Shown one piece after another: positions 5,827 through 10,428 of a stretch of 10,428 bases of DNA; the first letter of the stretch is position 1, and each line of letters begins with the position of its first letter. Below the pieces are notes generated by a model. The model made no database searches, was not told the DNA's origin, and saw only the letters and a program-made list of their open reading frames with translations. Source of the stretch: Pseudomonadota bacterium. Lineage in GTDB: Bacteria; Pseudomonadota; Alphaproteobacteria; Rhizobiales; Rhizobiaceae. The translations under genes were made by a program, and so were the position numbers. The stretch spans positions 1-10,428 of the forward strand of contig JAEYXI010000134.1 of the NCBI GenBank assembly GCA_023428515.1, given 5' to 3'.

Positions 5827-7109
5827 GCGTCACCGTCTTCCAGAACGCCAGAATCGTCGACCCCTCGCGCGGCGTCGACGAGACAGGCGCCGTCATCGTC
5901 GACGGCAAGAAGATCGCCGCCGCGGGCGCATCCGCCCTGAACCAGGGCACGCCCGAAGGTGCCGCGATCGTGGACTGCGCAGGCAAGGCCATCCTGCCGG
6001 GCCTCGTCGATTCCCGCGTCTTCATCGGCGAGCCGGGCGCCGAGCACCGCGAGACCATTGCCTCGGCCAGCCAGGCGGCGGCCGCCGGCGGCGTCACCTC
6101 CATCGTCATGATGCCGGACACCGATCCGATCATCGACGACATCGCGCTGGTCGAGCACGTGCTGCGCGCCGCGCGCGACACGGCGTCGGTGCATGTCTAT
6201 CCTGCAGCCGCAATTAGCAAGAGGCTTCTGGGACACGAGATGACCGAGTTCGTCCTGCTGCGCGAGGCAGGCGCGGTCGGCTTCACCGATGGCCGCAACA
6301 CCATCACCAGTTCCGCCCTGATGCGCCGCGCCCTCACCTATGCGCGCGACTTCGGCGCCGTGATCGCGCATGAGACGCAGGATGCGGAGCTGTCTTCCAA
6401 TGGCGTGATGAACGAAGGCCTCTACGCCAGTTGGCTCGGCCTGTCGGGCATTCCGCGCGAGGCGGAAGCGATCCCGCTGGAGCGCGACCTCATGCTCGCC
6501 CGCCTGACCCGCGGCAACTACCACGCGGCGAAGATCTCGACCGCCATGTCGGCAGCAGCGATCGCCCGCGCCAAGTCCGACGGGGCGAACGTCACGGCGG
6601 GCGTCTCGATCAACAATCTCTCGCTCAACGAAAACGACGTCGGCGAGTACCGCACCTTCTTCCGCCTCTCGCCGCCCCTGCGCGCGGAAGACGACCGGCT
6701 GGCCATGATCGAGGCCGTGAAGGGCGGCACGATCGACGTGATTGTCTCCTCGCACGACCCGCAGGACGTCGACACCAAGCGACTGCCCTTCGCCGACGCG
6801 GCGCAAGGCGCCATCGGCCTCGAAACGCTGCTCGGCGCCGCGCTCAGGCTCTACCACAATGGCGACGTGCCGTTGATCAGGCTGGTCGAGGTCCTGTCGA
6901 CCGCGCCGGCAAAACTCTTCGGCCTGCCCGGCGGAACGCTGAAGCCGGGCGCAGTGGCCGATCTCGCCGTCATCGACCTCGACGCCCCCTGGGTCGTCAA
7001 CGAGGCAGACATACGCTCGCGCTCGAAGAACACATGCTTCGAAGGCGCCAGGATGCAGGGCCGGGTCTTGCAAACGCTGGTCGCGGGCCGCACAGTCTTT
7101 TCATCGTAA
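5823..7109 (+). CDS. pyrC: Dihydroorotase-like protein lacking the metal site (PyrC'/PyrX type)
   Basis: A 428-residue member of the class I dihydroorotase family, full length, with the N-terminal strand domain, the amidohydrolase barrel and the C-terminal [14 protein letters not shown] segment. The catalytic residues are largely gone. The usual D-x-H-x-H-x-R-[ED]-P-G reads [10 protein letters not shown] at 63-72, so both metal His become Arg65 and Phe67 and the substrate Arg becomes Gly69. MPNT reads MPDT at 97-100. The later metal His (HxST type) is Lys237 in AAKIST, and the DHAPH motif reads SHDPQ at 310-314, losing the Asp. Only His183 of the metal ligands is clearly kept. It should not be an active dihydroorotase. 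In Pseudomonas an inactive PyrC' is required to assemble the PyrB holoenzyme, and the same role is inferred here from the ATGA overlap with pyrB. GGAGG at 5812-5816 serves the start. Confidence 0.9.
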
Positions 7110-7139: not shown

Positions 7140-7727
7140 ATGTCCTATGCGCTGCTGATCGCGCTCGTCTTCGGCTATCTGCTGGGCTCGATCCCCTTCG
7201 GCCTGCTGCTCACGCGCGCGGCCGGCCTCGGCGACGTCAGAAGCATCGGCTCGGGCAATATCGGCGCCACCAACGTGCTCCGGACCGGCAACAAGGGGCT
7301 CGCCGCGGTCACCCTGCTCCTCGACATGCTGAAGGGTACGGCCGCCGTGCTGGTCGCCAGCCACTACGGCCCGGAGCCTGCCATCGCCGCCGGCCTCGGC
7401 GCCTTCCTCGGCCACATCTTCCCGGTCTGGCTGGGCTTCAAGGGCGGCAAGGGCGTCGCCACCTATATCGGCGTGCTTTTCGGCCTGATGTGGCAGGTCG
7501 GGCTCCTTTTCCTCGCGATCTGGATCGCCGTCGCCTTCGCGTTCCGCTACTCCTCGCTCTCGGCCCTTACGGCCTGCGTGATCACCCCCATCGTGCTCTG
7601 GTTTATGGGCCGGCCTGACCTCGCCATCCTCTTCGCGGTCTTGAGTGTCATCGTCTTCATAAAACACCGCGCCAACATCTCGCGGCTCCTGGCCGGCACC
7701 GAGGGCAAGATCGGGGCGAAGGGTTGA
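7140..7727 (+). CDS. plsY: Acyl-phosphate:glycerol-3-phosphate acyltransferase
   Basis: A 195-residue inner-membrane enzyme that moves an acyl group from acyl phosphate to glycerol-3-phosphate, the first step of phospholipid synthesis (PlsX/PlsY route). The three PlsY motifs are intact: [11 protein letters not shown] at 16-26, [11 protein letters not shown] at 38-48 and [18 protein letters not shown] at 91-108. About five hydrophobic segments can be seen (near 3-25, 53-75, 80-98, 110-135 and 140-176). GGGGGAG at 7128-7134 stands before the ATG. It starts 30 bases after the pyrC-like stop, and its own stop overlaps the dprA start by 4 bases (TTGA), so it belongs to the pyrB-dprA operon. Confidence 0.97.
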
Positions 7728-8860
7728 ACAAGCCGGCCGAAGCCCCTCGCCTCAGCGACCGGCAACGGCTCAACTGGCTGCGGCTCATCCGCACGTCCAA
7801 TGTCGGCCCCGCGACCTTCCGGGACCTCATCAACCGCTTCGGCTCCGCCGAGGCCGCACTCGAAATCCTCCCGGAACTGGCGACAGCCGGCGGCGCAGGC
7901 CGGGCCGTCCGCATTCCTTCGGTAGCCGAAGCCGAAGCCGAGTTGGAGGCCGCGGCGAAGCACGGCGCGATCTTTGTCGGCATCGGCGAGCCCGACTATC
8001 CGCCCCTGCTCAAGCGCATGGACCACCCGCCGCCGCTTTTGGCGGTCAAGGGCACGCCATCCGTCTTCTCGCTGCCGCCGGTCGCCATCGTCGGCGCGCG
8101 CAACGCCTCGCTGGCCGGCGTCAAGATGGCGCGTATGCTGGCCGGCGAGTTGGGTCGGCAGGGATACGGCGTCGTCTCGGGCCTGGCGCGCGGCATCGAC
8201 ACCGCTGCACACGAAGGCAGTTTGTCGACCGGCACCGTCGCGGTTCTGGCGGGCGGTCTCGACAAGCCCTACCCGCCGGAAAACATCGACCTGCTCGGCG
8301 AGATCACCTCAAGCAGCGGCGCGGCGGTCTCCGAAATGCCGTTCGGCTGGGAGCCCCGCCCGCAAGACTTTCCGCGCCGCAACCGCATCATCGCCGGCCT
8401 CTCCTTTGGGCTGGTCGTCGTCGAGGCCGCGAAAAAGTCGGGCTCGCTGATCAGCGCGCGTCTAGCCGGCGAGATGGGAAGGCTGGTGTTCGCCGTGCCG
8501 GGCTCGCCGCTCGATCCGCGCGCATCGGGCGCGAACGGGCTGCTCAAGGAAGGCGCAACTCTTGTCACGGAAGCGGCCGACATCATCGAGGCCATCGCGC
8601 CGCTGACGGGAGCCGCGATCCAGCTCCCGCCCAAGCTCGACGCGCCGCCGGATTTCGGCGCCACGCCGCCGCCGCAGGATGGGGATCGCGAACGCGTGAT
8701 CGAGGCGCTCGGGCCGACGCCGGTCGGTGTCGACGAGATCATCCGCCACACCGGCCTGCACCCCGCGCAGATCTTCATGATCCTGCTCGAGCTCGACCTC
8801 GCCGGCCGTCTCGAGCGCCATTCAGGCGGAGCTGTTTCGCTTCTTTTTGGCGACTCGTAA
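7724..8860 (+). CDS. dprA: DNA-processing protein DprA
   Basis: A 378-residue DprA/Smf protein, which binds incoming single-stranded DNA and loads RecA during natural transformation; many non-competent bacteria also keep it. An N-terminal helix-hairpin-like segment (residues 12-60, [17 protein letters not shown]) precedes the Rossmann-type core: [10 protein letters not shown] at 120-129, [15 protein letters not shown] at 151-165, [14 protein letters not shown] at 172-185, [12 protein letters not shown] at 216-227, and [11 protein letters not shown] at 238-248. A C-terminal winged-helix domain spans about 320-374. The start is a rare TTG overlapping the plsY stop, with GGGG and AAGGG just upstream. 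The last 13 codons before the stop run through a 24-bp sequence repeated beyond higBA, so the tail FGDS may be a result of that insertion. Confidence 0.95.
8822..8845. repeat. Left copy of a 24-bp direct repeat flanking higBA (end of dprA)
   Basis: This 24-base sequence, beginning TCAGGCGGAG and ending TCGCTTCTT, recurs without a mismatch at 9602-9625, 780 bases away. Here it encodes SGGAVSLL near the DprA C-terminus. The identity stops sharply on both sides (8821 T against 9601 C; 8846 T against 9626 C). Confidence 0.93.
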
Positions 8861-8875
8861 GCCTGAAAATCAGGC
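8861..8875. terminator. Hairpin between convergent dprA and higA
   Basis: GCCTGA-AAA-TCAGGC is a perfect 6-base stem with a 3-base loop, placed directly after the dprA stop and covering the higA stop codon. It could end transcription from both sides. Neither strand has a good run of T after the stem, so it would be a weak intrinsic terminator or an mRNA 3'-end protector. TTCAGGC at 8821-8827 offers an alternative partner for GCCTGAA at 8861-8867. Confidence 0.45.
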
Positions 8876-9250
8876 GGCCCTGTCCTCGCGCGTCGGACTA
8901 ATGATAATGTCCGCGGAAATGCCAAGACCATCATTCAGGCGTCGGATCATATCGATCGAAAGACCACGCTTCCGGTTCATGACTTCCGCGACACGCGCCC
9001 GTGATCCGATGAACGGCTCCAGGTCCCTGCGGCTCAGACCCAGCTGCTCCATTCGAAACTGTATGGCTTCGATCGGATCCGGCGGATCAAAGGGATACGC
9101 CTCCTTCTCGTAGGCTTCGACCAGGGTGACCAGCACATCGAGACGGTCGCCTTCAGGCGTTCCGCTTTTCGCTCCCCAAAGGCGCTCCACTTCCGTCATG
9201 GCGCGCTCGTGATCGGCCTCTGTCCTGATGGGCTTCAGCTCATTCTTCAT
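8870..9250 (-). CDS. higA: HigA antitoxin, HTH-type
   Basis: A 126-residue antitoxin of the larger HigA class (COG5499 type, from memory). The N-terminal part (1-55, with ALxxVExLW-like spacing and PEGDRLDVLVTLVEAYEKE) leads into PPDPIEAIQFRMEQLGL and a helix-turn-helix at about 68-108 (LSRRDLEPFIGSRARVAEVM, then RGLSIDMIRRL). It should neutralise HigB and, with it, repress its own promoter. It is the second gene of the pair: its ATG overlaps the end of higB by 11 bases, with GGAG 8 bases upstream inside higB. The frame is open far upstream, but that part is higB read out of frame. It ends within the hairpin facing dprA. Confidence 0.92.
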   Translation of the reverse strand: MKNELKPIRTEADHERAMTEVERLWGAKSGTPEGDRLDVLVTLVEAYEKEAYPFDPPDPIEAIQFRMEQLGLSRRDLEPFIGSRARVAEVMNRKRGLSIDMIRRLNDGLGISADIIISPTREDRAA

Positions 9251-9563
9251 GCTCGATCTCCGAAACGTTGATGCGGTCGTATTCCTTGTGTGTCCCAACC
9301 CATTTGATCCAAACGATCGACTTTTCGTAGTCGACCGAAACAACCAGCCGATAGTCATTACCTTTGATATTGAAGACGATCCTGTCGGCGCCGACGATGC
9401 TGGCTGTCGCATAGAGCCGCTTCACACCTGCGGAATTTCGCCAGACCGTTCTGCTTACTTCGGCGTACCAGGCATCGAGAGCAGCGCCGACCGCACGCTG
9501 GTCCTTTCGACCGGCAAGCTTGTCCACGAAGGTGCGCAGAGTCCGCCGGGCGATGATCCGCAT
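9240..9563 (-). CDS. higB: HigB toxin, mRNA interferase family
   Basis: A 107-residue toxin of the HigB family (PF09907 type), which cleaves mRNA, usually on the ribosome, and is related in fold to RelE. Family marks are MRIIARRTLRTF at the start, AWYAEV near 31-36, SIVGADRIVFNIKGNDYRLV at 55-74 and WVGTHKEYDRI at 88-98. Length is normal and no frameshift is seen, so the toxin is probably functional. Toxin first, antitoxin second is the standard hig order. Base composition is visibly poorer in G+C than the surrounding operon genes (about 43% in 9301-9360 by hand count), fitting acquisition from outside. The ATG at 9563 has only GAGG two bases upstream, too close for normal use; see the promoter entry. 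Confidence 0.93.
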   Translation of the reverse strand: MRIIARRTLRTFVDKLAGRKDQRAVGAALDAWYAEVSRTVWRNSAGVKRLYATASIVGADRIVFNIKGNDYRLVVSVDYEKSIVWIKWVGTHKEYDRINVSEIEHEE

Positions 9564-9569
9564 GGCCTC

Positions 9570-9598
9570 TACATAACACGATCCCAAAATGGGAACAA
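9570..9598 (-). promoter_or_regulatory. Candidate higBA promoter with palindromic operator in the spacer
   Basis: On the minus strand TTGTTC (9598-9593), 17 bases, then TATGTA (9575-9570) form a plausible sigma-70 promoter. The spacer holds the palindrome TCCCA-AAA-TGGGA (9582-9594 on +), a natural site for autorepression by HigA or the HigBA complex. Transcription would begin at or next to the higB ATG (9563), implying a leaderless toxin mRNA. Confidence 0.45.
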
Positions 9599-9601
9599 CG
9601 C

Positions 9602-9625
9602 TCAGGCGGAGCTGTTTCGCTTCTT
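9602..9625. repeat. Right copy of the 24-bp direct repeat flanking higBA
   Basis: Identical over all 24 bases to 8822-8845. On the minus strand it encodes the last residues and stop codon (KKRNSSA then TGA) of the 66-aa gene. Read in the phase dprA uses for the left copy, it continues as three codons (L, D, I) and a TGA at 9635-9637. Confidence 0.93.
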
Positions 9626-9802
9626 CTCGATATTTGACGGCCGTTCCCCGCGCAGTATGTCGCTCGCTTCGAGATAGGCCATCTCGATCAGGTAGGCGAG
9701 CATGTCGCAACGTTCGGCATCCGCCATGCTGCGCAGCTGTGCCAGCATCGACTGTATGTAGCCGAGTGTTTCGTTGCGTTTTCTGCCGGGCTGGGCATGC
9801 AT
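9602..9802 (-). CDS. Small helical protein of unknown function
   Basis: A 66-residue protein dominated by two likely amphipathic helices: ETLGYIQSMLAQLRSMADAE, then CDMLAYLIEMAYLEASDILRG, with basic ends (KRNE early, EKKRN late). It looks like a small conserved rhizobial protein, but I cannot name a family. The ATG at 9802 has GGAG 9 bases upstream and is chosen over an in-frame ATG at 9817 (71 residues). Its last eight codons and stop are the right copy of the 24-bp repeat. It lies 38 bases upstream of higB on the same strand, but higB appears to have its own promoter, so they need not be one operon. It could be a helical adaptor or regulator; nothing shows a catalytic site. Confidence 0.65.
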   Translation of the reverse strand: MHAQPGRKRNETLGYIQSMLAQLRSMADAERCDMLAYLIEMAYLEASDILRGERPSNIEKKRNSSA

Positions 9803-10097
9803 CGTGCAAGACTCCATTGCCGCCCCGGGCGCAGTTCATGTGCGCGAGGCGATCGTTCAGTCTCTGGATTATTTTGCCGTTATTCGCGGCAACCCCTTAT
9901 GGTGATTATCACTATCAGAATTACTGTAGGTTGCAAGGAATTTTTGCCTAGCGTAAAAGTTGCATATGGTCGTACAGGGTCCGAATTTGGGTCAGCGGAC
10001 TTGACCGGACGGAAAACCGCAGCCATGTGACGGACGATTCCAAAAACTTCAGGGCGCAGCCATCCTCCACCCGCGCCGCAGGGAAACTGAACAGCTC
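9803..10097. other. A+T-rich intergenic region upstream of topA
   Basis: About 295 bases without a convincing gene. It holds an inverted repeat TTGCCG-7-CGGCAA (9874-9892), the palindrome GTGATTATCAC (9902-9912), and two promoter-like pairs facing topA: TTGCAA-N17-TAAAAG (9931-9959) and CTTGAC-N17-CCATGT (10000-10028). The stretch 9860-9970 is clearly richer in A+T than the rest of the window. Short open frames here have no protein-like character. Confidence 0.6.
10000..10028 (+). promoter_or_regulatory. Candidate topA promoter
   Basis: CTTGAC (10000-10005) is an exact rhizobial -35 box. After 17 bases CCATGT (10023-10028) matches four of six positions of CTATAT. Transcription would start near 10035, leaving a leader of about 60 bases before the topA ATG. 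Confidence 0.4.
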
Positions 10098-10428
10098 ATG
10101 GACGTCGTCGTCGTCGAATCGCCTGCGAAGGCGAAAACGATCAACAAATATCTCGGCCGCAACTACAAGGTCCTGGCCTCCTATGGCCATGTCCGCGACT
10201 TGCCGGCCAAGGACGGCTCCGTGCGTCCCGATGAAGACTTCTCCATGTCTTGGGAGTTCGACGGCCCCTCCTCCAAGCGGCTCAGTGAAATCGCCTCCGC
10301 GATGAAGGAAGCCGACGGCCTGATCCTCGCCACCGACCCGGATCGCGAGGGCGAGGCGATCTCCTGGCATGTGCTGGAGATCCTGAAGAACAAGCGCGTG
10401 CTGAAGGACAAGCCGGTCAGCCGCGTCG
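10098..10428 (+). CDS. topA: DNA topoisomerase I, N-terminal part (runs off the window)
   Basis: The first 110 codons of a type IA topoisomerase, which relaxes negative supercoils by single-strand passage. All that is visible is the Toprim domain: MDVVVVESPAKAKTI with the metal-site Glu7, GHVRDLPAKDGSV at 30-42, and ATDPDREGEAISWH at 78-91, with Asp80, Asp82 and Glu84 forming the Mg-binding DxDxE. The active-site Tyr lies beyond the window. The ATG at 10098 matches the usual TopA start, though its upstream AGGGAAA is about 12 bases away, so ribosome binding looks weak. The gene is in the usual rhizobial place after dprA, but here separated from it by the higBA insert, the 66-aa gene and the A+T-rich spacer. 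Confidence 0.96.
   Translation, partial: MDVVVVESPAKAKTINKYLGRNYKVLASYGHVRDLPAKDGSVRPDEDFSMSWEFDGPSSKRLSEIASAMKEADGLILATDPDREGEAISWHVLEILKNKRVLKDKPVSRV

Follow-up and report, generated by a model that had tools for sequence, protein, structure and literature searches.

Introduction

Chromosomal type II higBA loci, in which a HigB toxin of the PF09907 family is paired with a helix-turn-helix antitoxin HigA, have the toxin gene first, an overlapping antitoxin gene and an upstream palindrome. Integrative elements are known that use and restore the 3′ ends of genes, the end of the target being kept and a direct repeat flanking the element. On Acinetobacter plasmids, dif modules carry higBA and pdif sites recombine (PMC13141974); in these modules, a toxin–antitoxin unit without a recombinase of its own lies between short sites.

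The locus described in the present study lies in a window of 10,428 nt (the whole stretch of DNA analysed) from a member of the Rhizobiaceae. It is like the chromosomal higBA loci in gene order, overlap and palindrome, but forms a bare cassette exactly at the overlap of two convergent genes, with that overlap present twice. It has the kept 3′ end and the flanking direct repeat of the integrative elements, but no integrase, and its repeat can be explained by the pre-existing overlap of two genes. It also resembles the Acinetobacter modules, but has no dif-like site. Modules of higB, higA and a large serine recombinase in Hyphomicrobiales encode HigBA 71–75% identical to that of the window over both proteins and have a similar upstream palindrome, whereas the window has no recombinase and other neighbours.

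Duplication of the overlap lets a single-operon cassette lie between two overlapping conserved genes without damage to either, as relatives with empty sites or decayed copies illustrate. Some ‘att-like’ repeats beside toxin–antitoxin pairs could be explained in this ordinary way, and others can be tested simply, by asking whether relatives have the repeat as an overlap of two genes. Among the literature titles listed, none concerns a duplicated gene overlap around a toxin–antitoxin pair, which is weak evidence.

Results

A higBA pair between two copies of a 24-bp repeat

A 24-bp direct repeat (TCAGGCGGAGCTGTTTCGCTTCTT) occurs at positions 8822–8845 and 9602–9625, the copies being 780 bp apart and 100% identical, as an earlier sequence-only reading of the window had reported. 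It is the longest exact direct repeat of the whole window. Among 300 first-order Markov sequences simulated at the length of the window, a repeat of at least 17 bases was present in five, of at least 19 in one and of at least 20 in none, which rules out a chance origin of the 24-mer. The same reading had described a sharp loss of identity outside the repeat; identity does drop beyond the 24-mer, but not to nothing, as 27 of 39 positions match when the copies are compared ungapped over 39 bp. Both higB and higA lie entirely between the copies, as it had stated (Table 1).

HigB matched PF09907 with 101.9 bits (cut-off 27). HigA, encoded directly downstream of HigB with a fitting order and overlap, scored 21.8 bits against HTH_3 (cut-off 23) and 16.1 bits against the NCBIfam HigA model TIGR02607 (cut-off 47.7). 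Judged by the PF09907 match, the gene order and the overlap, higBA is a predicted type II toxin–antitoxin pair, and the palindrome upstream of higB (TCCCAAAATGGGA) is a candidate HigA operator. A simple scan of 8780–9700 found no sigma-70-type promoter, and a higB promoter is assumed. HigB also matched the whole A protein profile of the PD-Lambda-2 phage defence system (E 2.4e-36); HigA matched only positions 2–124 of the 402 in the B protein profile (E 1.7e-45), well short of a full-length B protein.

The insert holds no gene other than higB and higA, and thus no integrase gene, and only 9 bp separate the stop codons of dprA and higA. The scan of 14 window proteins named neither a recombinase nor a transposase, with the exception of RuvX (Pfam ‘Holliday junction resolvase’); RuvX aside, the absence of a recombinase noted earlier holds for these proteins. 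Transposon insertion was discarded, there being no transposase among the scanned proteins and no terminal inverted repeat joining the two insert ends among the 25 inverted pairs listed (of 88). The G+C content is 57.4% for the insert, 69.2% for dprA, 55.5% for the right flank (9626–10097) and 53.6% for the intergenic stretch; the insert, said to be poorer in G+C than its surroundings, is so relative to dprA but not to the right flank or the intergenic stretch.

Table 1. Features at the dprA/orf71 junction (positions in the window)
Feature	Position	Strand	Remarks
dprA	7724..8860	+	native 3′ end corresponds to repeat copy 1; Pfam DprA_N, DNA_processg_A, DprA_WH; C-terminus like that of relatives
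Left overlap copy, 39 bp	8822..8860	.	from former orf71 stop (TCA) to dprA stop (TAA); 8822–8845 is the exact 24-mer
Inserted unit: higB upstream region, higB, higA	8861..9601	.	absent from empty relatives; present in L159 and L007
higA, antitoxin, 126 aa	8870..9250	-	start overlaps higB end
higB, toxin, RelE-like, 107 aa	9240..9563	-	PF09907, E 2.2e-29
Palindrome TCCCAAAATGGGA upstream of higB	9582..9594	-	similar palindromes upstream of related higB genes
Right overlap copy, 36 bp	9602..9637	.	one codon shorter, relict in-frame dprA stop (TGA); 9602–9625 is the exact 24-mer
orf71, 71 codons	9602..9817	-	convergent with dprA; native 3′ end corresponds to copy 2; tblastn matches in 72/80 dprA loci
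topA (start)	10098..10428	+	right-hand reference gene

The repeat corresponds to the overlap of the dprA and orf71 3′ ends

We compared the window with the dprA loci of relatives (best 80 of 500). An orf71, which matched no Pfam, NCBIfam or PADLOC family, was found beside dprA in 72 of these 80. The 3′ ends of the two genes overlap in 66 of the 72, the 3′ end of orf71 being antisense to dprA there. The six without overlap comprise three with cargo between the genes (L007, L009 and L029) and three in which the genes lie 3, 19 and 51 bp apart (L016, L025 and L062 respectively). The length of the overlap varies, the commonest being 39 bp (20 empty loci). Since a single stretch codes for both gene ends, the repeat sequence is present once in empty relatives; in the filled slot, dprA and orf71 each have their own copy, copy 1 encoding the last DprA codons (SGGAVSLL...) and copy 2 starting with the stop codon of the minus-strand orf71. 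By this comparison of sequences, the repeat is the dprA/orf71 overlap, duplicated around the higB upstream region, higB and higA.

The sequence-only reading had regarded higBA as an inserted unit with att-like ends, and the 24-bp length as suited to a site-specific or homology-driven entry. Its inserted unit stands, as close relatives have empty sites and the repeat accompanies the insert. The att-like ends find no support, the repeat being a gene overlap of which empty relatives have one copy and the filled site two. Nor is the argument from length sustained: both genes need the duplicated overlap to stay whole, so the length of the repeat gives no hint of a site-specific enzyme. The comparison thus points to a real higBA insertion and, on present evidence, not to an att-flanked cassette.

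A search for further copies of the 24-mer, proposed in that reading, gave a single occurrence in total with up to three mismatches across the genomes of ten relatives, at a dprA end, so a dispersed repeat was not seen. The reading had also pointed to relatives without higBA that might still carry two copies. Of L001–L080, 77 loci have no higBA, higA or L029-type gene in the slot; when up to 1.1 kb was searched by sliding comparison, none had a second copy matching at 18/24 or better (best 17/24, sliding control best 16), a search that likewise failed to pick up the decayed copies described below for L007, L009 and L029. As a side observation, the left copy (8824–8843) scores on the plus strand as a hairpin of the terminator type with T residues after it (two overlapping matches against 0.5 expected), and the overlap may double as the dprA terminator.

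Two kinds of cargo occupy the slot in three lineages

A family search gave a HigB match in 52 of 297 genomes; of the 61 matches, the best 16 places were examined at length. This led to L159 (the same as L082), the closest relative, which has the same insert in the same slot, with 93–94% identity to the window for DprA and 86–88% for HigBA. At the DNA level, HigBA is more diverged from L159 (79%) than dprA is (87%). The two overlap copies of L159 match at 21/24 and 29/39 positions, and its copy 2 has an in-frame relict dprA stop at codon 13. From the 29/39 match and the relict stop, the original duplication would have been approximately 39 bp, with the 24-mer of the window as its unchanged part. 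In the nearest other relatives on the tree described below (L001, L004 and L006) the slot is empty.

The slot is also occupied in L007 (Mesorhizobium camelthorni), with higBA, and in L009 (Mesorhizobium alhagi), with higA at 1134–1610; a higB was looked for in the L009 slot and not detected, and this higA looks like an antitoxin left behind after loss of the toxin. In L029 (Rhizobiales bacterium 65-79), an unrelated 120-codon gene (6139–6498) lies in the slot between two overlap copies. It matched no significant Pfam family and has what we take to be a lipoprotein-like signal. When dprA–topA distances were surveyed by eye among the matches listed, L029, G031 and G072 stood out besides the higBA genomes; in L183 (G031:C22), the dprA–topA gap appears by eye to be enlarged by a tandem repeat before orf71.

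After the sliding search had missed the second copies of L007, L009 and L029, an anchored test was made, in which the first 24 bases from the orf71 stop were compared with the 20 empty overlaps, using 793 other TCA-starting 39-mers as controls. Mean identities per 24 positions were 19.2 for the right-hand copy of the window, 16.6 for L159, 16.0 for L007, 16.1 for L009 and 14.6 for L029, every one above all of the controls (mean 8.4, maximum 13.0). Left-hand copies scored 14.9–19.2/24, as expected of dprA ends, so the right-hand copies are the informative ones. The in-frame relict dprA stop is kept at codon 13 in copy 2 of both L007 and L009. Copy 1 and copy 2 match each other at 15/24 (L007), 14/24 (L009) and 12/24 (L029), which is within chance (sliding control up to 16), so the duplication in these loci rests on the resemblance of copy 2 to the empty overlaps. 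At the level of alignment, the anchored test shows that both copies descend from the overlap; the time of doubling lies outside its reach. What is unusual is that all three filled lineages, with their two kinds of cargo, have the gene overlap in duplicate.

The number of entries

A tree was built from pieces of PyrB, PyrC, PlsY, DprA and TopA. On this tree, the window with L159 and L007 with L009 are separated by many loci without higBA; on the 45 tips that remained once seven loci were set aside (dprA neighbour changed or orf71 not found), the distribution takes two changes under free gain and loss, as opposed to one gain and ten losses. Node support is 96–100 next to the window and weak (43–81) deeper in the tree.

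A single ancient entry of higBA, predating the divergence of the window and L007 lineages and followed by many losses through recombination between the copies, is compatible with the entry that we propose below, and we regard it as possible though doubtful. The HigBA tree joins the window, L159 and L007, and a single origin is not rejected (AU p 0.58); on the higB side, the junction TGA-GCG-TTG is common to the window and L007, and direct repeats would ease precise loss. Against it stand the ten losses as compared with two changes, and the position of L004/L006, L001, L011/L025 and L010, all without higBA, which branch within nodes of support 96–100. The HigBA of L007 is by raw identity 79–86% identical to recombinase-linked HigBA and 74.5% to that of the window; separate donors for L007 and the window were nevertheless dropped, as the tree and the AU test do not reject a single group. 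L029 represents a separate event because its cargo differs. The closest HigB proteins from a large protein search (up to 89%) had no gene neighbourhood attached, so the slot may be filled in further genomes.

HigBA loci outside the dprA slot

We examined 24 HigBA loci that lie at sites other than the dprA slot, chosen from among the best matches; L202 and L203 were inspected but not counted, and L204–L222 were not included. In 13 of the 24, the N-terminal motif of a serine recombinase begins 18–27 bp after the higA stop; L168 is by eye a 14th recombinase-linked locus, and the remaining loci had no such motif in the 400 bp tested. The L160 recombinase has Resolvase, Recombinase and zinc ribbon domains. 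The arrangement higB–higA–large serine recombinase appears as a recurring module in Hyphomicrobiales (L160:7291–9699; L161–L167, L170, L171, L196, L197 and L199).

In L194 and L266, a bare HigBA lies between convergent genes resembling amidase and plsY (named by eye). The same flanks occur without HigBA in G658, G636 and G641, where they are 4, 4 and 6 bp apart respectively. Comparison of the insert with these empty sites, at this one site, found no long duplication; in L266, but not in L194, the 8-mer GCAACAAG was seen by eye on both sides of HigBA. As the amidase and plsY genes do not overlap, no duplication is needed there. It is chiefly this contrast between an overlapping and a non-overlapping site that leads us to attribute the 39-bp duplication to the landing place rather than to an enzyme; as it rests on one site, it is suggestive only.

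Discussion

Empty sites have a single overlap and filled lineages two copies, a second type of cargo occupies the same slot, and the copies changed once released. We consider that higBA probably entered the dprA/orf71 junction in a non-site-specific manner, with the overlap duplication kept by selection. A bare cassette of upstream region, toxin and antitoxin would have entered where the 3′ ends overlap by approximately 39 bp, and its entry would have duplicated the overlap, so that dprA retained its 3′ end on the left and orf71 on the right. The event may have been illegitimate: a fragment could have been captured where a staggered break left ends approximately 39 nt apart that were then filled in, or illegitimate recombination could have been aided by homology. 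Survival would have been limited to events with a duplicated overlap, since others would cut dprA or orf71. Later, the first 24 bp would have stayed identical in the window and the rest diverged, as copy 1 no longer had to encode the end of orf71, nor copy 2 that of dprA, and trimming of spare DNA may have left only 3–9 bp between the stop codons and the higB upstream region. Each step of this entry is a proposal from sequence comparison. Several points weaken it. Three lineages are filled at the same overlap, as a site preference would also give, and the spacing is tidier than an illegitimate event need leave it, with only 3–5 bp from the orf71 stop to the TTG that precedes the palindrome and 6–9 bp between the higA and dprA stops. 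The chance-level match between the two copies of L007, L009 and L029, the single site behind the contrast with non-overlapping genes, the 8-mer of L266 there, and a HigBA tree that does not reject one origin for the window, L159 and L007 also count against it.

The use of one slot by three lineages and two types of cargo, together with a target that is a gene 3′ end and is kept, would also suit site-specific integration at the dprA 3′ end by a tyrosine-type integrase acting in trans, with the 24–39 bp repeats as attL and attR and the gene end restored. As for an integrative element, the flanking repeat derives from a target that is single in empty sites; duplication of the overlap accounts for this equally well. 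That the slot was used at least twice keeps this reading in consideration, but we hold it to be unlikely: no integrase was named among the scanned window proteins or, in rearranged relatives, seen by eye among the listed ORF starts next to dprA, and the repeat sequence of the window was not seen by eye at the ends of HigBA kin elsewhere. A viral or plasmid carrier of an att-like sequence was sought and not found, as the exact 24-mer is absent from viral contigs and no plasmid or phage record had a place covering 80% of the dprA end. The bare HigBA insert between amidase and plsY, which has no long repeat relative to its empty sites, also argues against it.

The recombinase motif 18–27 bp past higA in 13 of the 24 loci elsewhere raises the question of whether the unit in the window descends from an integrated higB–higA–large serine recombinase element whose recombinase has since been lost. 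This seems quite improbable to us, as the higA and dprA stops leave only 6–9 bp between them, and serine integrases, which act at a 2-bp core, are not known to produce duplications of 24–39 bp. A tree placing L007 with 16 mostly recombinase-linked rows was rejected (AU p 0.015), which is a weak point against the remnant. A Xer-recombined dif-type module like those with higBA on Acinetobacter plasmids, suggested by the analogy of a toxin–antitoxin pair without its own recombinase between short sites (PMC13141974), is scarcely credible, since the window has no dif-like site at up to three mismatches from the consensus, and the repeat is a coding 3′-end overlap.

Apart from these alternatives to the non-site-specific entry, convergent 3′-end overlaps could be a general landing place for bare toxin–antitoxin cassettes and other single genes, with an unnamed recombination or repair process duplicating the overlap each time. 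We think this generalization improbable. If true, it would let genes enter conserved clusters harmlessly and leave no enzyme behind, and such a landing preference would bear on the spread of solitary chromosomal toxin–antitoxin loci.

Beyond the chromosomal loci, more distant HigA relatives were found in 526 plasmid records (72% at best), and HigB relatives in viral contigs reach at most 50%. Two further higBA sites showed repeats by eye. Between rsmE and gshA (L172 and L169; genes named by eye), higBA is bracketed by a short direct repeat, TTTCCATTG; empty relatives aligned only loosely with these loci. In L195, a REP-like palindromic repeat, GGATCACGCCTTCGGCTGATCC, stands on either side of HigBA.
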